A DNA stretch of 35,292 bases, taken from a virus. Made by a program: the position numbers and the translations under genes. Positions 11,165 through 35,128 of this stretch are shown one piece after another (the first letter of the stretch is position 1; each line of letters starts with the position of its first letter). The stretch spans positions 1 through 35,292 of IMG/VR virus record IMGVR_UViG_3300043570_002878. One strand, written 5' to 3'. Below the pieces are notes generated by a model that searched no databases, was not told the origin of the DNA, and worked only from the letters and a program-made list of their open reading frames with translations.

Positions 11165-11944
11165 ATGAAACTTTCTATATTGCATCCAGACATTTGGTAT
11201 TTTGAAAACGCTATTCCAGAAGCAGAAAAATTTCTTTCTTTATTAGAGGACAATAAAAATATTACAAGCGTTATACCAGATTGGTCCGAATGGCGTGATA
11301 CTTATGCTAGAGGAGCAGATGAAGTAATTATCGATAAGCCCCTATCTGCTGGTGAAGGAGGGGCCCCCATGGGTGTAGATAAGTTTGTTGACTGGGATAT
11401 GTCAATAAATGATTATGGTAGAATTTGGCCAAGAATAGTACCAGATTCAGAAACCCACAATAAGGCATATCAAATATTAAAATTAATAGATTTACCATTT
11501 AAAAAAGTTTTAGATTATTATTGGTCACAAAATCCAGATTTTCCTAAACTTCAATACATTAGCAAAAACTATCCTATAAGAAAATATTCACCTGGAACAG
11601 CTATGCCAGTTCACGTAGACGCAACTGGTCTAGCTGGTACTACAGAGGATGATAAAATATCTATGGATTTAGCTGCTTTAATTTATTTAAATGACAAATA
11701 TACTGGCGGAGAACTTAATTTTGTTAATCTTGGAATTAGGTTTAAACCTTCTGCTGGAAGTATTGTTATTTTTGATGGAATAAAACATCAACACGAATCT
11801 ACTCTTATTGAATCTGGAAATAAAATATATATTCCTTTTTACATTCATACAAAATTTGGCTGGATTTCTTGTTTTAGAGAACCCGTAGAGGCTGGCGGTA
11901 GTCAAAATTTGTATCTTAATAAAGCACCTAGGTTGACAGACTAA
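11165..11944 (+). CDS. 2-oxoglutarate/Fe(II) dioxygenase, 259 aa
   Basis: Residues around 150 give MPVHVDATG with the iron-binding HVD, followed by IYLNDKYTGGELNF, a VIFDG strand, the distal His in KHQHEST and a Lys ten residues later for 2OG. The N-terminal 100 residues (IWYFENAIPEAEKFL, then a Trp-rich DWSEWRD) are shared in pattern with the truncated oxygenase at 35112, suggesting a sub-family. Leaderless start. Substrate unknown. Confidence 0.85.
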   Translation: MKLSILHPDIWYFENAIPEAEKFLSLLEDNKNITSVIPDWSEWRDTYARGADEVIIDKPLSAGEGGAPMGVDKFVDWDMSINDYGRIWPRIVPDSETHNKAYQILKLIDLPFKKVLDYYWSQNPDFPKLQYISKNYPIRKYSPGTAMPVHVDATGLAGTTEDDKISMDLAALIYLNDKYTGGELNFVNLGIRFKPSAGSIVIFDGIKHQHESTLIESGNKIYIPFYIHTKFGWISCFREPVEAGGSQNLYLNKAPRLTD

Positions 11945-27704: not shown

Positions 27705-29036
27705 ATGAGTAAAAGATCTGGTAGAAAATCCCAAGCAGCAAACGATTTCTTAGAGCCAAAACCTGTAGAAAGCTTAACCGCTACAGATGTAGGAACATCT
27801 AGGACATTTAATAACGGAGCAGCAAATTTATCATGGTCTCTACCAGCTGGCTCACCAGAAGCTACAAGTTATACAATAACAACAACTCCATCATCAACAA
27901 CTGAAACTACATCTAATACATCTTTTCAGTTTACAGGACTATCTTCAAATACATCATATACATTTTCAGTAGTTGGAAGCAATGCAGCAGGATCTTCTGC
28001 TGCAACAGAGTCTAGCTCTGTATTAATTACTACTGTGCCAGCAAAGCCAGTTTCTGTAAGCGCAGCATCACCAAGCGCTGATCAAGACGTAGTATCCTGG
28101 TCAGCAGGAGCAACTGGAGGTAAAGCAATTACTAGCTTTACAGTTGTTTCATCAGATGGACCTTCATATCCAAACTCTACGTCACCAAAAACTATTTCAG
28201 AAACAGCAAATACATCACAAACATATACTATTTATGCAATTAATGATAATGGAACATCACAAGGAGAAACTACTAATTCAGTTACAACAACAGCACCTTA
28301 CTTCCCACCGTTCTTCCCTTACTTCCCACCGTTCTTCCCGTTCTTCCCGTTCTTCCCACCTTACTTCCCACCGTTCTTCCCGTTCTTCCCGTTCTTCCCA
28401 CCATACTTCCCACCGTTCTTCCCGTTCTTCCCGTTCTTCCCACCGTTCTTCCCACCGTTCTTCCCACCAAGATTCGGTCCTTACTTCCCACCGTTCTTCC
28501 CACCAAGATTCGGTCCTTACTTCCCAGCATGTGTTGATGGAGATACTTTAATATTAACTAGCGAAGGCCCAAAGCCAGCAAGAAAAATTAAAGTTGGAGA
28601 TAAATTGTTAACAGTTGATGCTCTAGGTTTAATAAATCAACCTAACTCAACTCCTCTTGAAATAAACGTTCAAGACTTAATAATAACCAACCTAGCACAC
28701 ACAGAGGTTACAAATGTGATAGTCTCAGACAAGCAAGACAGAGTTTACTTCAATGGAAACAGCGAAGCTCAATTCACAGAGACTCACCCAATATTTGTAA
28801 AGCGTAATAACGAATATCGTGTAGTCGAGGCAGGTACAGTTCAAGAGGGAGATATATTAATAAATATCTCAGTAGACAACTTATCTGAATCACTAGATAT
28901 GAGTAAGATTATCTCAGAAGTTGAAGTATCTAAAGTAGATAAAATAACTTTAGAATTAGCAAAAGATGTTTATACATTTAGTTGCAGCCCACATAACTGG
29001 TACTTTGCAGGAGATATATTAACTCACAATAAGTAA
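27705..29036 (+). CDS. Fn3 - Phe/Pro/Tyr repeat - Hint domain protein, 443 aa
   Basis: Three parts are visible. Residues about 20-110 and 112-196 are two fibronectin-III-like domains (NLSWSLPAGS...SYTFSVVGSNAAG; DVVSWSAG...TYTIYAINDNG). Residues 198-274 are almost only Phe, Pro and Tyr, built from YFPPFFPFFPFFPP units plus two RFG interruptions. Residues 276-443 are a Hint domain: catalytic Cys in CVDGDTLIL, block B TETHPIFV, and the end YFAGDILTHNK with the His-Asn pair. The protein ends one residue after HN, so there is no C-extein. The Hint part may self-cleave or attach the rest to a nucleophile. Last gene before the oxygenase operon. Confidence 0.85.
   Translation: MSKRSGRKSQAANDFLEPKPVESLTATDVGTSRTFNNGAANLSWSLPAGSPEATSYTITTTPSSTTETTSNTSFQFTGLSSNTSYTFSVVGSNAAGSSAATESSSVLITTVPAKPVSVSAASPSADQDVVSWSAGATGGKAITSFTVVSSDGPSYPNSTSPKTISETANTSQTYTIYAINDNGTSQGETTNSVTTTAPYFPPFFPYFPPFFPFFPFFPPYFPPFFPFFPFFPPYFPPFFPFFPFFPPFFPPFFPPRFGPYFPPFFPPRFGPYFPACVDGDTLILTSEGPKPARKIKVGDKLLTVDALGLINQPNSTPLEINVQDLIITNLAHTEVTNVIVSDKQDRVYFNGNSEAQFTETHPIFVKRNNEYRVVEAGTVQEGDILINISVDNLSESLDMSKIISEVEVSKVDKITLELAKDVYTFSCSPHNWYFAGDILTHNK
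28296..28528 (+). repeat. Tandem repeat coding for the Phe/Pro/Tyr tract
   Basis: About 230 bp of 9-bp and 42-bp units using only TTC, CCA/CCG/CCT/CCC and TAC codons, so the plus strand is strongly pyrimidine-rich. Almost no synonymous drift in Phe (TTC) and Tyr (TAC) suggests recent expansion or selection on the DNA. Confidence 0.85.
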
Positions 29037-29131: not shown

Positions 29132-29851
29132 ATGTCAGATATTTATGATATAGACAGCAATCCTTGGTTTACAAAAGATAGGTCAGAATCAACTTCCTTT
29201 AGAGTAGAAAGATCTTTTGAAAATATTAAAGTTTTAAATCCAGGAATTGGATTAAATATCTATCAGTCAGCTATCACAGATGATGTTTGTAAAAAATCAA
29301 TTAAAATATTAGAAGATAAATTAACTAATGGTAAAATTTATAAATGGTCAGAAGCACAAGTTACAACTTCCGACAAACCAGTAAAATCTGCAAGAGACTG
29401 TGTTGATTTTAAATTTAAGCCAGAAAACCTTGGACAAAGAAATGAAAACAATTCAGAACTTTTAGATATGCATCAATCAATATATGATGTATTAAAAAAA
29501 TGTATAGATGATTATTGTAAATATTGGGGAATTAATGTAATATACTATGAAGCATTTAACTTTGTAAAATACACAAGCCCAGGACAACATTTTAGGGTTC
29601 ATGCAGATCATGGACCGCATTATAATTGTACAGTATCTGCTGTAATTTATTTAAACGATGATTACGAAGGCGGAGAAATAGCGTTTCCAAGATTAGACAA
29701 ATTAGTATACAAGCCAAAACGTGGCGATGTAGTAATATTCCCATCAAACTATATATACGAGCACTCTTCAGAACCAATGATTTCTGGAGACAAGTACTCA
29801 GTTGTAGTTATGATGGATATTAACCTATTAGGACATAAGGAGAACAAATAA
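29132..29851 (+). CDS. 2-oxoglutarate/Fe(II) dioxygenase, 239 aa
   Basis: First gene of the operon. HFRVHADHGPHYN gives the HxD iron ligands, then VIYLNDDYEGGEIAF, VVIFPSNYIYEHSSEP with the distal His, and a Lys near DKYSVVVM for 2OG. Very similar in layout to the next gene, so the pair arose by duplication. Prolyl-4-hydroxylase-like; substrate unknown. Unlike many genes here it has a real leader of about 17 bases. TAATG overlap with the next gene. Confidence 0.88.
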   Translation: MSDIYDIDSNPWFTKDRSESTSFRVERSFENIKVLNPGIGLNIYQSAITDDVCKKSIKILEDKLTNGKIYKWSEAQVTTSDKPVKSARDCVDFKFKPENLGQRNENNSELLDMHQSIYDVLKKCIDDYCKYWGINVIYYEAFNFVKYTSPGQHFRVHADHGPHYNCTVSAVIYLNDDYEGGEIAFPRLDKLVYKPKRGDVVIFPSNYIYEHSSEPMISGDKYSVVVMMDINLLGHKENK

Positions 29852-30507
29852 TGAATAAACAAACTTGGTCAAGCGCAGAAGATTTAGGATCAGGAATTTG
29901 GGTATATAGAGATGTTTTAACAAAAGACCTAGACATTATTAATAGACTAGAGTCAAATTTAGATGGCAATACTCCAGGATGGACATGGCAGCCAGCCTAT
30001 GTAGGATATCAAGAAAGAATGCCAGAATACAGAGAATGCGTTGATTTTAAATTTAAAAAATCAGATATAGCTAATGACAAATCTCCTATATCATTAAAAA
30101 TGCAAGAATTGTGGCAAGATTGCTATGACAGACAAGCACCAGCAGTAGATGACTATTGCAAAAAACATAATATACATAGACTACAATATTGGGAAGCTTT
30201 TAATTTTATTAAATATGTTCCTGGTCATCATTTCATGGAGCACCATGATCATGGATTTTCATATAACTGCACAGTCTCTTTGGTAGGTTATATTAACGAT
30301 GATTACGAGGGCGGAGAATTATATTTTAGACTACAAGATTTAAATATTAAACCAAGGGCTGGCGACTTATATATATTCCCTTCAACATACATGTACCCCC
30401 ATCAGGCTAAAGTAGTTAAGTCTGGAACTAAATATTCTTTGGTTACAATGCTAGATTACAGCGCAAAGTTTCATACACCAGCAATGTATGAAGACACTGG
30501 TGACTAA
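29851..30507 (+). CDS. 2-oxoglutarate/Fe(II) dioxygenase, 218 aa
   Basis: HHFMEHHDHGFSYNC supplies HxD, then VGYINDDYEGGELYF, LYIFPSTYMYPHQAK with the distal His, and a Lys in TKYSLVTM. Shares CVDFKFK and the EAFNFIKY region with the preceding protein, showing recent duplication. The start overlaps the upstream stop as TAATG, and its stop overlaps the following start likewise. Confidence 0.88.
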   Translation: MNKQTWSSAEDLGSGIWVYRDVLTKDLDIINRLESNLDGNTPGWTWQPAYVGYQERMPEYRECVDFKFKKSDIANDKSPISLKMQELWQDCYDRQAPAVDDYCKKHNIHRLQYWEAFNFIKYVPGHHFMEHHDHGFSYNCTVSLVGYINDDYEGGELYFRLQDLNIKPRAGDLYIFPSTYMYPHQAKVVKSGTKYSLVTMLDYSAKFHTPAMYEDTGD

Positions 30508-31226
30508 TGCCGATATTAAAAGCATATAAAACAAACCCAAATTCATTTATATTGGATCCAATTTCAGTAAAAAGAGACTGGATGGATGAAACTCCTGACG
30601 GACACGCATATAGGTGTTTCCCAGTAACTATGGCCAATACTATAGGCTGGACGCTGTCCTGTCCAGTAGACGTTTCATTTATATGGGATGGGAAAATAGA
30701 CACAACCCCAGACAGAGTTAAAATTTTGTCAGGAGAGCAATATTGCTATACTGGAAGAGGGCAGGGCTCAGTAAGTTTTAATACAGGACTTATATTAAAA
30801 TCAGAAAAAAATATAAGCGTACTAAGCATTACTCCACAAAATTATTTTTATGAAGATTTTGAGGTAATGTCATCTTTAATAAGTACATCTTTTTTTAATG
30901 TAGATTTTCCATTAGCAATTAAAGTTAAAATTCCAAACAAAGAAATTACTATAAAAGCTGGAACACCAATTGCTACAATTATTCCAATTTCTCTTACTTC
31001 TTTAAAAGATGAATCTATAGAAATAAATAATTTTATATCTACTGATGAATATAGAGATAAATTAAAAAAATATGGAGACGCAGCACAAGTAATAAATCAA
31101 AGTGGAAATTGGACAGATTGGTACAGAGATGCTATTGACGAAACTGGTAATTCTATTGGTGAGCACGAAGTTAAGTCTTTAAAGCTTAAAGTAATAGATA
31201 ATACAAAAGAACAAAACAATGCTTAA
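30507..31226 (+). CDS. DUF6065-like protein, 239 aa
   Basis: The N-terminal half has KRDWMDETPDGHAYRCFPVTMANTIGW, close to the DUF6065 pattern (W-M-D-x-T-P, then Y-R-C-x-P, then A-N-x-x-G-W). The C-terminal half is beta-rich (IPNKEITIKAGTPIATIIPI). The family is uncharacterised; a double-stranded beta barrel is likely. TAATG overlap at the start puts it inside the oxygenase operon, suggesting it helps bind or present the substrate. A second relative follows. Confidence 0.7.
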   Translation: MPILKAYKTNPNSFILDPISVKRDWMDETPDGHAYRCFPVTMANTIGWTLSCPVDVSFIWDGKIDTTPDRVKILSGEQYCYTGRGQGSVSFNTGLILKSEKNISVLSITPQNYFYEDFEVMSSLISTSFFNVDFPLAIKVKIPNKEITIKAGTPIATIIPISLTSLKDESIEINNFISTDEYRDKLKKYGDAAQVINQSGNWTDWYRDAIDETGNSIGEHEVKSLKLKVIDNTKEQNNA

Positions 31227-31947
31227 TAAAATCAAATTTGTTTCTAACAGGCCGTGGTTAAATAAAAATAGTGTATCTAAGCCAATGCCTGCAATTAAAG
31301 AAATTCCAGATTGGTTTAGAAAAGCAGATAGGTTTGCAATTAACCCAATTACAAAAGATTATTGGCAAGGACCAGACGGGGGAAAAATTCCTACGTGGAA
31401 AGCTTGCCCAGCAATATTTGATATATTAGGTACAGGGTATGTTTTAAAAACGCCATGTGATATTAAATTTTATTTAAAAAATAATAAAATGTCTGTTGAA
31501 ATTAAAGAACCTAAATTTAAAGATTTTTGTTCTGAAAGACAACCAATGCCACAATTCGTACACCCACAAGGATACTACAAAGAACATTTTGCCTGGTATC
31601 CAGATTGGGCAATAGAACTACCAGAAGGATATAGCGCTTTATACACAACACCATTTAATAGATTTGATTTACCATTTTTAATGACAACTGGAATTGTAGA
31701 TAACGATAAAATTAATTTGCCAGGAACTATGCCATTTTTTATTGTTAAAGGGTTTGAAGGCGTAATTCCAGCAGGAACACCATACGCACAAATAATTCCA
31801 TTTAAAAGAGAAGACTGGGATTCAGACATTATAATAGAAAACCCAAATAACTTGCATAAAAAAAATCAAGAAAATAGCAATAAATATAGAGTTAAAGATG
31901 GTGGAGTATATAAAAATGAAGTTTGGTCTAAAAGAGTTTACGAATAG
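31219..31947 (+). CDS. Second DUF6065-like protein, 242 aa
   Basis: Starts MLNKIKFVSNRPWLNKN. It shares the end pattern VIPAGTPYAQIIPF and the placement of Cys-Pro (WKACPAIFDIL) with the preceding protein, so I see it as a distant paralogue; the family assignment is less certain. The middle (DWAIELPEGYSALYTTPFNRFDLPF) is rich in aromatic residues, as in ligand-binding barrels. Overlaps the previous gene by 8 bp. No catalytic motif seen. Confidence 0.6.
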   Translation: MLNKIKFVSNRPWLNKNSVSKPMPAIKEIPDWFRKADRFAINPITKDYWQGPDGGKIPTWKACPAIFDILGTGYVLKTPCDIKFYLKNNKMSVEIKEPKFKDFCSERQPMPQFVHPQGYYKEHFAWYPDWAIELPEGYSALYTTPFNRFDLPFLMTTGIVDNDKINLPGTMPFFIVKGFEGVIPAGTPYAQIIPFKREDWDSDIIIENPNNLHKKNQENSNKYRVKDGGVYKNEVWSKRVYE

Positions 31948-31964: not shown

Positions 31965-32636
31965 ATGGATAAAGAATTAGCAAACGGTGCACATAATTGG
32001 GAAAATAGAGTATCAATAACCCCTCCAGGATTTTTTGGGACTTCTGCAGATCAAATACAATCAAGAGAAAATTTTATGACAGAAGAAGAAAAAATATTTT
32101 TGCTAAATGCAGCAAAATCAATTAATGAATGGGACAAGACAGAAACTCATTACAATGATAATGGAATTGTAATATATGATTCATCTTATTGGGACAATAG
32201 AGTTGCATCAAGACCAATTTTAGATTCAATAGATCCAGAAATTTCTATTGTTATTGAAAACCTTGTAAAAAGACTTAAAGTAGAAGTTGATAATTTTTTT
32301 AATGTCGATGCAAAACCCACTAGTCCAGCTATAGTAAGATGGATGCCTGGATATAAACAGGAACCGCATGCAGATAAACAATTACAAAATGGAGAGCCAA
32401 ATGATTTTCCTTGGTACGATTTAGCTGGATTATTTTACCTTAATGATGACTACGAAGGCGGAGAACTATATTTTTTAAATCAAGGAGTAGAGTTTAAACC
32501 AAAACCAGGGGCAGCTTATTTTTTCCCAGGAGATGTTGGATATAGTCATGGAGTTAAAGAAATTACAAGTGGAATTAGATATGTAATTCCATTTTTTTGG
32601 ACAATATTAGAGCACACTGGAGATAAAAAACCATGA
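31965..32636 (+). CDS. 2-oxoglutarate/Fe(II) dioxygenase, 223 aa
   Basis: QEPHADKQ gives HxD; LFYLNDDYEGGELYF, FKPKPGAAYFFPG, YSHGVKEI with the distal His, and GIRYVIPFFW with the 2OG-binding Arg complete the pattern. Most like the 33442 protein, with which it shares the GEPNDF/GEPNAF region. No ribosome-binding site; the TATAAT box at 31953-31958 suggests a leaderless mRNA in addition to read-through. Stop overlaps the next start. Confidence 0.88.
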   Translation: MDKELANGAHNWENRVSITPPGFFGTSADQIQSRENFMTEEEKIFLLNAAKSINEWDKTETHYNDNGIVIYDSSYWDNRVASRPILDSIDPEISIVIENLVKRLKVEVDNFFNVDAKPTSPAIVRWMPGYKQEPHADKQLQNGEPNDFPWYDLAGLFYLNDDYEGGELYFLNQGVEFKPKPGAAYFFPGDVGYSHGVKEITSGIRYVIPFFWTILEHTGDKKP

Positions 32637-33445
32637 ATAAAGAATTAGAAATTATAAAGATTTATCCAAAAATACATATATATAGAAATGTTTTTAATGA
32701 TGTAGATTTATTTTTGGAAAAAGCAAAAAAATGTGTTGTTTGGGAAGAGTGGTATACGTTTGGGACGATGCTGCCTCTTCAAGAAGCGCCAATTAGATTT
32801 ACATCATTTCCAACAAGAGAAGAATATATAAATTCTAGACGTTGGCAAGTAGAAACCGACAACGATGTTTTAAGGGCGGATTTAACAAAAGAATTAGGAG
32901 AAATCTTTTATGACGTAACTAGTAATTTTTTAAATTCTTATACAGACATATCTTTTAATAATTGGGTAAAATACCCAGCATCAATAAATAAATATTTTGA
33001 AGGTGCGGGAATAACAGATAATTATGCTATGAACTACCATACAGATTTTGTACAATTAGAAAAAGATGCACCAGGAATTAAATTTGGAATTACTACAACA
33101 TTTTATTTAAATGATGACTATGAAAATGGGGAAATTTGTTTTAAAGTTGGTGATGATATATTGTCTCACAAACCTAAAAAAGGAGACGTAATAGTATTTC
33201 CTTCCTCACCACCATACTATCATGCAGTTAGAAGAGCAGACGGCACAGATAGGTATATGATTAGATCATTTTGGCAATTTGATTACGAAGGATCACCAGA
33301 ATGGATAGAAAATGAAAATAAATATGGTAAAGAAATTTGGGATAAAATGGAAAAAGACAGAATTAAAGAAAATAGAAATGTAGGTCAAATTAATGCTGAA
33401 GAATTACATAAATTGTTTGGCAAAAATAATGGATTGCATTTATGA
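32633..33445 (+). CDS. 2-oxoglutarate/Fe(II) dioxygenase, 270 aa
   Basis: MNYHTDFVQ (HxD), TFYLNDDYENGEICF, VIVFPSSPPYYHAVRR with the distal His, and RYMIRSFWQ with the Arg. The C-terminal 45 residues are a charged helix. Paralogue of the 34277 gene, sharing YPKIHIYRN-like and YHTDF segments. ATGA overlap with the previous gene and with the next. Substrate unknown. Confidence 0.88.
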   Translation: MNKELEIIKIYPKIHIYRNVFNDVDLFLEKAKKCVVWEEWYTFGTMLPLQEAPIRFTSFPTREEYINSRRWQVETDNDVLRADLTKELGEIFYDVTSNFLNSYTDISFNNWVKYPASINKYFEGAGITDNYAMNYHTDFVQLEKDAPGIKFGITTTFYLNDDYENGEICFKVGDDILSHKPKKGDVIVFPSSPPYYHAVRRADGTDRYMIRSFWQFDYEGSPEWIENENKYGKEIWDKMEKDRIKENRNVGQINAEELHKLFGKNNGLHL

Positions 33446-34284
33446 AGCAATGTACTTGTGGAAGATCAAAAGCTTACCCATATTGTGACGGAACACATAA
33501 AAAGAAAAAGGAGTCATTAATGAAAAACGGAATGATAGATGTTTTAGATAGTAGCAAATTTATTATTTTACAAGATGAAGAAATTCCAGAAAGTAAAGCT
33601 GGAGTACTTGGAGTATATACTAATAAAATTGTAGAAATACCTAATTTTATAGACCCAGAAATTGTTCCAAAAATGATTAATTTTTTTGAAAATTGTAATG
33701 TTGATTGGGGAGATATTGCGTTTTATGGTTCCTCTGGAAAAGGAATTATGACAGATTCTGAGACAATGAAAAAATTTGAATTACCAGATGGATTTTTTGA
33801 TAAGTTAAAAAATAAATATCAAGAAACAGTAGAATTAGTATTTGGTAGAGAAGTTAGAGCAAATACCTCTCATGCACAAAAATGGGATGTTGGAGGGTTT
33901 GCAAGCCCACATTCAGATAATTCAGATAATAAAGGAGAGCCTAATGCTTTTGCAATAAATAAATATGTAGGAATACTTTATCTTAATGATGATTACGAAG
34001 GCGGAGAATTGTATTTTTGTGACAAAGATAACGAAATGAAAACCTATTTATCTTTTAAGCCAAACGTTTATTCTTATTATGTTTTCCCTGGAGGATATGA
34101 AAATATTCACGGTGTCTCAGAAATAACCAAAGGTACAAGATACACCATGGTTTCATTTTGGGATTACGCAGATTCAGTTTACGATCAAGAAACATTAGAT
34201 AGATGGGAAGAAGAAGAAAAGCAAGTTAGAATTGAACAGGCAAAGCAAAAAGAAGAATGGAATAAAGGAAACAAATATGCTTGA
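33442..34284 (+). CDS. 2-oxoglutarate/Fe(II) dioxygenase with N-terminal CDGSH iron-sulfur motif, 280 aa
   Basis: Residues 4-19 read CTCGRSKAYPYCDGTH, which fits the CDGSH [2Fe-2S] motif exactly (C-x-C-x2-S-x3-P-x-C-D-G-T-H). A Lys-rich linker follows. The oxygenase part has SPHSDNSD (HxD), LYLNDDYEGGELYF, IHGVSEI with the distal His and TRYTMVSFW with the Arg. An in-frame ATG at 33520 with AAGGAGT in front could yield the oxygenase alone (254 aa). ATGA overlap at the start. The iron-sulfur part might donate an electron to keep iron reduced. Confidence 0.85.
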   Translation: MKQCTCGRSKAYPYCDGTHKKKKESLMKNGMIDVLDSSKFIILQDEEIPESKAGVLGVYTNKIVEIPNFIDPEIVPKMINFFENCNVDWGDIAFYGSSGKGIMTDSETMKKFELPDGFFDKLKNKYQETVELVFGREVRANTSHAQKWDVGGFASPHSDNSDNKGEPNAFAINKYVGILYLNDDYEGGELYFCDKDNEMKTYLSFKPNVYSYYVFPGGYENIHGVSEITKGTRYTMVSFWDYADSVYDQETLDRWEEEEKQVRIEQAKQKEEWNKGNKYA

Positions 34285-35128
34285 GGGTACAGATTTTTAT
34301 AAAATAGCTCCAAAGATTATTGTTTACAAAAATGTCTTCAATAATGATTATTTTATGGAATGTTTTGAACACATTAAGTCTATTGATAATATGTGGGTAG
34401 ACTGGTACATATATGGCAAGCAGACAAACTTTCCAGTTAAAGATACTAGACCACACAATGTTCCAGGAGTTTTGCCCTATAATGAATTTAAACAAGATAT
34501 TAATTTTGACGAAGTCACAGATGAAAAGCTTAAATTTTTCTATAACTACATAGAAGATGTTTTTTATAATACGACCAAGCACTATTTTGAGCTTACTGGA
34601 GAGACTCCACCAGAAGGCTCTCCGATAAGCCACTTTACCGCAACCCTACTTAAGTATATACCTCATGAGAGTTTTGAACCAGCTGGATCAGTAATGGGAT
34701 ACCACACAGATTTTCAGCAAGAAAAAACCGAAGAGCCAGGCTTTAAATTTTTTGTAACATGCTGCATGTATTTAAATCATGATTATGATGGAGGACAAGT
34801 ATCCTTTAAGATATTTCAAGATGAATCAAATGATCCAAATGCAGAGTATGTAAAACATATGTACCAACCAGAATTTGGCGATGTAACAATTTTTCCATCA
34901 AGAGCACCATACTATCACGGAGTAAAGACTGTAACAAATGGAATAAAGTATTTTATTAGAAGTTTTTATATGTATAGCTATCCAGGCTCGGAAGCATGGC
35001 ATGCAAACAAAGATAAATATGGCGAAGAGCTATGGAAACAGATGGATAGAGAAAGACAGATAGCTGATCTAAAATCTGGTAAAAATGAAAGAAAAGATGC
35101 AGACGAAAAAAATGGAAGAAATGGATAG
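34277..35128 (+). CDS. 2-oxoglutarate/Fe(II) dioxygenase, 283 aa
   Basis: The start MLEGTDFYKIAPKIIVYKN at 34277 is chosen because AAAGGAAAC lies before it and it overlaps the upstream stop by 8 bp; a longer frame from 34232 lies within the previous gene. MGYHTDFQQ (HxD), CMYLNHDYDGGQVSF, VTIFPSRAPYYHGVKT with the distal His, and KYFIRSFY. Paralogue of the 32633 gene, with a larger insert. Charged C-terminal helix. Confidence 0.87.
   Translation: MLEGTDFYKIAPKIIVYKNVFNNDYFMECFEHIKSIDNMWVDWYIYGKQTNFPVKDTRPHNVPGVLPYNEFKQDINFDEVTDEKLKFFYNYIEDVFYNTTKHYFELTGETPPEGSPISHFTATLLKYIPHESFEPAGSVMGYHTDFQQEKTEEPGFKFFVTCCMYLNHDYDGGQVSFKIFQDESNDPNAEYVKHMYQPEFGDVTIFPSRAPYYHGVKTVTNGIKYFIRSFYMYSYPGSEAWHANKDKYGEELWKQMDRERQIADLKSGKNERKDADEKNGRNG

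Follow-up and report, generated by a model that had tools for sequence, protein, structure and literature searches.

A possible portable iron accessory: a CDGSH mini-unit recurrently fused to, or neighbouring, the iron-dependent oxygenases of freshwater phages

Introduction

According to Lin et al. (2011), the CDGSH fold combines an N-strand, a P motif and a beta-sandwich dimer with nine positions that are universal, G15 among them, and with a residue 1 that is hydrophobic in the solved proteins; the N-strand, the P motif and the beta-sandwich were considered necessary for the fold (PMC3174974). The fusion partners given in the literature include glutamate synthase and DUF1271 (types 5 and 7; PMC3174974), together with Cyt-b5, thioredoxin, Fer4_19, Rieske and ferritin-like domains (PMC5859297). 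On the enzyme side, the phage 2OG-Fe(II) oxygenases of phrog_61, which are common accessory genes in cyanophages and others, belong to the same superfamily as the enzyme studied here. A further short cysteine motif of similar size, the SEC-C motif of SecA, has the consensus C-x-C-x8-C-(C/H), with its fourth ligand at C+1.

We have analysed a 35,292-nucleotide stretch of viral DNA (IMG/VR record IMGVR_UViG_3300043570_002878; the window) in which a CDGSH unit is joined in frame to a 2OG oxygenase, a partner that sets it apart from the CDGSH fusions just named. The initial annotation knew of no established family with this architecture. We too found none in print, at the level of titles and abstracts in mostly open-access sources.

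Results

The fused open reading frame occupies positions 33442-34284 on the plus strand, encodes 280 amino acids and ends with a stop codon at 34282-34284. From the ATG at 33442 its N-terminus reads MKQCTCGRSKAYPYCDGTHKKKKESL, followed by a methionine at 33520. Residues 1-19 (MKQCTCGRSKAYPYCDGTH; 33442..33498, plus strand) constitute the mini-unit, with C4, C6, C15 and H19 as candidate ligands, and are an exact fit to C-x-C-x2-(S/T)-x3-P-x-C-D-G-(S/A/T)-H. A Lys-rich linker of seven codons follows (33499..33519, plus strand) and includes the Shine-Dalgarno sequence AAGGAG (33508-33513) that serves the internal start; the CDGSH segment originally drawn at 33442-33519 is thus sound for 19 of its 26 codons, the other 7 being linker with a ribosome-binding site. 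The Pfam model zf-CDGSH (PF09360; curated cut-off 29.5 bits) scores 30.3 bits in the whole ORF (residues 4-20) and 34.8 bits with residues 1-26 alone. This match spans only model positions 32-48 of 48, and it is the single zf-CDGSH match in the whole viral record. With the consensus matched, both Pfam cut-offs passed and the fusion recurring in homologues, an exact CDGSH signature in frame with a 2OG oxygenase, as first annotated, is borne out.

All nine of the cluster-binding and loop positions given for CISD types 1-7 (mitoNEET, CISD2, CISD3) in PMC3174974 are present in the window unit, and its best matches among solved structures are CDGSH proteins (3tbn and CISD1-3). Unlike the CISD proteins, it lacks the N-strand, the hydrophobic residue 1, the P motif and a second copy; its residue 1 is Gln, preceded by Met-Lys only. 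Judged by sequence, the unit is a stripped CDGSH variant that keeps every cluster-binding position, not a canonical member, and it is among the smallest CDGSH units, as had been proposed.

Its small size (19-26 amino acids), the missing CDGSH beta-sandwich elements and the Lys-rich flank would also suit a zinc knuckle that folds around Zn2+ and, much as SecA uses its SEC-C end, serves as a tag for docking, holding the oxygenases of the operon together or onto their protein substrate. The C-x-C-x8-C spacing is the same, and phmmer gives a weak match to the SecA peptide 1ozb (E 0.27). However, the CDGSH loop retains its Ser7, Pro11, Asp14 and His17, and the third Cys is followed by Asp, with the fourth ligand, His, at C+4 and not at C+1, so that the window unit departs from the SEC-C consensus. 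We regard the zinc knuckle as unlikely, although it carries real weight.

The unit is conserved in close homologues. There are eight distinct fused C sequences, the window included, that are 84-100% identical, and across them pN/pS is 0.12 for motif codons 2-19 (pS 0.68, pN 0.083) and 0.13 over the first 240 oxygenase codons, with small indels left unaligned. As read from these codons, purifying selection on the motif is as strong as on the enzyme, a measure that is blind to the identity of the metal. With so short a unit in DNA of 64% A+T, a chance motif, a frame error or an assembly artefact might be suspected. Seven further contigs with 100% identity in the best segment, seven divergent fused forms, the low pN/pS and the Pfam score refute this explanation and leave it a negligible probability. 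The conservation of the N-terminal segment leaves the fusion claim intact.

From its internal ATG, 2OG-Fe(II) oxygenase C (33520..34284, plus strand) is a protein of 254 amino acids with a prolyl/lysyl-hydroxylase-like fold. Pfam 2OG-FeII_Oxy_3 matches residues 148-239 of the fused ORF with 37.1 bits (cut-off 27), and the HxD...H iron triad and the 2OG-binding Arg (H157, D159, H223 and R233 in fused-form numbering) are invariant in 47 aligned sequences. In AlphaFold models the oxygenase has a pLDDT of 88.5 and the CDGSH unit about 54 (about 46-50 in a B fusion); the unit, whose beta-sandwich strands are missing, was modelled as a monomer at low confidence. Its modelled placement against the enzyme was discarded because its pLDDT is too low to trust. 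Fold comparison by VIA-align, on a span without unit residues 1-24, returned P3H1 (Z 18.0, rmsd 3.0, 192 aligned), OGFOD1 (Z 17.6, rmsd 2.9, 190 aligned), an algal P4H with a Ser-Pro peptide (Z 17.2, rmsd 3.3, 177 aligned), PHD2 (Z 17.1, rmsd 3.3, 195 aligned) and LH3 (Z 17.0, rmsd 2.6, 169 aligned). Rows within 1 Z count as tied, so these matches point to a protein-hydroxylase-like fold and cannot tell the type of target residue. With these enzymes and mimivirus L230 the window enzyme shares HxD...H...R, a fold Z of 16-18 and a score above the Pfam cut-off, but it is only 14-20% identical to them and it carries the CDGSH unit.

The fused ORF begins in an ATGA overlap with the stop codon of oxygenase B (33442..33445, plus strand). 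Its upstream start has a duplex energy of -3.1 kcal/mol, weaker than the -8.2 kcal/mol of AAGGAG at the internal ATG. That ATG and an SD-like sequence (AAGGAG, AGGGA, AAGGA or AAGGTGG) are kept in 8/8 distinct fused C forms, and the ATG lines up with the point at which the unfused gene of the sister arrangement begins; L014 has an extra, earlier Met in the linker, and the homologous Met follows AAAAGGAAAAAT (aligned by eye). The background rate of SD-like sequences is 9.5% for 326 other ATGs inside 14 window genes and 6% for the 64 in-frame ones. The eight forms are related and are not eight independent draws, although their SD letters do differ. The retained start nevertheless supports two products from fused C, which gives comparative backing to the earlier suggestion that both forms are made. 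No Met lies near the junction in the B-type fusions or in L029, L030 and L049 (C'-type), so that for these enzymes the fused form seems to be the only product.

We kept 80 of 211 relatives as related loci, none of them found via the motif, and scored the unit with one change allowed in seven key positions; gene maps were drawn for representatives, and the others were placed by motif position and sequence. The unit is fused to C in 20/80 loci (L002-L021), to B in 14/80 (L027, L032, L039-L048, L055, L062) and to a C-like extra oxygenase in 5/80 (L029-L031, L049, L081). It is free just before C in 12/80 (L022-L026, L028, L033-L038), as a 39-amino-acid gene in L022, and free elsewhere after A in 9/80 (L052, L053, L054, L057, L058, L059, L060, L061, L066). 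The unit was not found in the DNA of 20/80 loci, three of which are short or cut (L050, L051, L056) and 17 of which are more distant relatives (L063-L065, L067-L080); it is dispensable in some lineages. The CDGSH-oxygenase fusion of the initial annotation is therefore real and conserved, but its limitation to oxygenase C is rejected.

None of the 80 loci has two units. Among 30 whole records, a zf-CDGSH match (E 0.1 or better) is present in 18, with exactly one in 17 and a second weak hit in the other; none was found in the remaining 12, the sample having been chosen to include unit-less operons. Mapped onto a maximum-likelihood tree built from 40 oxygenase A proteins, the six arrangements call for no fewer than 10 changes, where 5 is the minimum possible and shuffling gives a mean of 25.2; recombination between neighbouring genes could inflate this count. 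A partner that varies, a unit that is often a separate gene and operons that lack it fit a portable accessory of oxygenase operons better than a domain of this one enzyme.

Alternatively, the unit could be a small protein in its own right with some other role, its gene lying in the oxygenase operon by coincidence, and fusion an occasional loss of a stop codon that has little effect. Free unit genes of 36-43 amino acids are common, split and fused arrangements are intermingled on the oxygenase A tree, and the internal start and SD of every C fusion still allow the enzyme to be produced by itself. Against this stand the B-type and C'-type fusions that seem to be made only as such, and the appearance of fusion in at least six kinds of oxygenase but, among the matches listed, in no other protein of at least 150 amino acids. 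We consider a separate protein of this kind improbable.

Those fusion counts come from motif scans of viral contigs. A CDG-motif scan gave at least 119 loci, with ORFs recovered in 118/119 and forming 67 clusters, and a CDN-motif scan gave 80 loci, with ORFs in 80/80 and 31 clusters; the scans fixed the ligand residues and required Tyr or Phe before the third Cys, and conservation within the hits is thus partly built in. Among the matches listed, CDGSH ORFs of at least 150 amino acids contained an oxygenase in 30/30 clusters (9 CDG and 21 CDN), called by an HMM from six window oxygenases in 28, by Pfam in one JmjC case and by shared sequence in one C-terminal-type case. N-terminal, C-terminal and JmjC fusions occur among these listed ORFs. 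The JmjC domain scores 29.8 bits in Pfam (cut-off 22), and the unit fused to JmjC_2 is seen at L245:7073-7873 and L249:3621-4421. The C-terminal type (L222 and its kin) reaches E 0.03-0.08 with 2OG Pfam families in 3/4 tested and has no such match in L228; it keeps HxD...H...R, and over 58 columns its profile can be aligned to the window family with a probability of 94.8%.

Units of the 'CGRS..[YF]P' type were fused to, or no more than 100 nt from, a 2OG gene in 24/27 CDG-scan clusters among the matches listed, and those of the 'other' motif type in 2/36. A 2OG gene was not found within 1500 nt in 38/67 CDG-scan clusters among the matches listed and in 8/31 CDN-scan clusters, some of them cut by contig ends; 9/20 records with free mini-units, picked for a second look, were without a 2OG-FeII_Oxy_3 match. 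Residue 1 is polar (Q, K, D or R) in 48/50 oxygenase-linked clusters listed, and the P motif (GP-hydrophobic-x-hydrophobic) with its lid proline was not found in the window protein or in 49/50 of these clusters; in the 48 unlinked clusters listed, residue 1 is of mixed character and a P-like motif is present in 10. G15 is replaced by Asn in the CDN-scan clusters and by Glu in L018, and such CDN/CDE relatives depart from the consensus.

Free CDGSH proteins of 31-38 amino acids with another motif type are encoded in records without a 2OG-FeII_Oxy_3 match (L084, L088, L117, L156, L182, L193). Viral CDGSH proteins of 71-72 amino acids lie near 2OG genes (L128:1134-1349, L123, L132, L133), and the one tested, that of L128, has a sub-threshold KOW motif.

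The occurrence of free, N-terminal and C-terminal forms would again suit the docking tag of the zinc knuckle, but there would be little reason for a tag of that sort to turn up exclusively with iron oxygenases, the JmjC type included. What the partners have in common is an iron/2OG active site and hardly anything more, which points to an iron-related role; together with the loop residues that are kept, this inclines us to iron over zinc.

By tblastn, none of 50,697 phage records covers 80% of the fused protein, and the 30 matches obtained begin at residue 34 or later, so that none includes the CDGSH unit. In cultured phages the 39-amino-acid unit has one weak match (E 7), the L087 fusion has 9 partial oxygenase matches and the L231 fusion 174 partial matches, 0 of them covering 80%; no match was found there for the C-terminal-fusion protein L222 or the L128 CDGSH protein.

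The oxygenase operon of the window, all on the plus strand, consists of 2OG oxygenases p1 (29132..29851) and p2 (29851..30507), a DUF6065 protein that also has a weaker phrog_7084 match (30507..31226), a phrog_7084 family protein that is second of the tandem pair (31219..31947), 2OG oxygenases A (31965..32636) and B (32633..33445), fused C, and 2OG oxygenase D (34277..35128), which overlaps the end of C by 8 nt. The CDGSH slot follows A in mapped loci of this operon type, and orthologues of B are N-terminally CDGSH-tagged in other phages (L027, L032, L039, L040 and others). The DUF6065/phrog_7084 tandem (30507-31226, 31219-31947) is kept in most related loci mapped. Outside the operon (11165-11944) there is one more 2OG oxygenase, which matches Tet_JBP below threshold. 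The window ribonucleotide reductase is 64-65% identical to those of Yaboi, Daubenski and similar Streptomyces phages, and a second window protein is 53-55% identical to proteins of the same phages; these identities suggest that the host is probably an actinobacterium.

The ORF just upstream of p1 (27705..29036, plus strand) combines an FN3 domain with many (Y/F)FPPFFP repeats and ends in an intein/Hint-like domain, the last a sub-threshold Pfam match with 27-28% identity to structural proteins from the virions of Erwinia and Dickeya phages. It is a candidate for a hydroxylated, self-processed virion protein. For 36 distinct p1 orthologues (97 ORFs, with 19 dropped for having less than 600 nt upstream and duplicates merged), an aromatic-Pro repeat ORF lies within 150 nt upstream in 29/36 and within 3 kb in a further 4, and 3 have none. 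The repeat ORF is seen in loci with and without the CDGSH unit, so the protein may be a substrate for the operon's enzymes but is not tied to the unit. Prolyl hydroxylation by oxygenase C is only suggested, by the fold and by this adjacent protein.

ORFs with the FN3, (Y/F)FPPFFP and intein/Hint-like combination also occur in L002, L009, L018, L039, L063, L076 and others, and PPYFPPFFPP-like repeat ORFs in contigs with other 2OG genes (L206-L219). L003 (7904-8869), L009 (7886-8827) and L022 (7867-8482) have another aromatic-Pro repeat ORF, which lies downstream of their oxygenase cluster. A collagen-like G-x-y substrate in the tail genes was rejected, with a run of 3 triplets only, in 1/10 ORFs examined.

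Discussion

To our knowledge, how bacterial and viral 2OG oxygenases stay ferrous without ascorbate is little understood, and the role of CDGSH proteins in prokaryotes is largely unknown. The unit described here is conserved, is fused to oxygenases at varying positions, is present in one copy per operon and goes with a retained internal start, all features of the DNA and its translations. We propose, with a probability of roughly 0.4, that it is a stripped, iron-holding CDGSH unit that serves as a portable accessory keeping phage Fe(II)/2OG protein hydroxylases active.

The unit would hold iron, most likely as a labile [2Fe-2S] cluster, and would pack against an oxygenase or another copy of itself in place of its own beta-sandwich. 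During infection it could keep the oxygenases of the operon active, either as a source of iron or by re-reducing their iron centre once turnover has become uncoupled, and it may act on the whole oxygenase set; if it does, one copy per operon would be enough and the identity of the carrier enzyme would matter little. Termination and reinitiation at ATGA would give the tagged form and the internal start the untagged form. As for the enzymes, their target is probably the virion-like protein whose gene lies immediately upstream, with its aromatic-proline repeats as the sites of hydroxylation. A more detailed proposal is doubtful but worth stating: a [2Fe-2S] module of about 20 residues, without a beta-sandwich of its own, might be a swappable iron or electron donor for prolyl-hydroxylase-like and JmjC enzymes, acquired repeatedly for the hydroxylation of virion proteins, in hosts that perhaps reactivate such enzymes poorly.

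Fused, split and unit-free orthologues occur naturally, which allows the same oxygenase to be compared with and without its unit. Should a cluster be bound, the unit would be among the smallest CDGSH modules, and it would contradict the view, expressed in PMC3174974, that the beta-sandwich is required.
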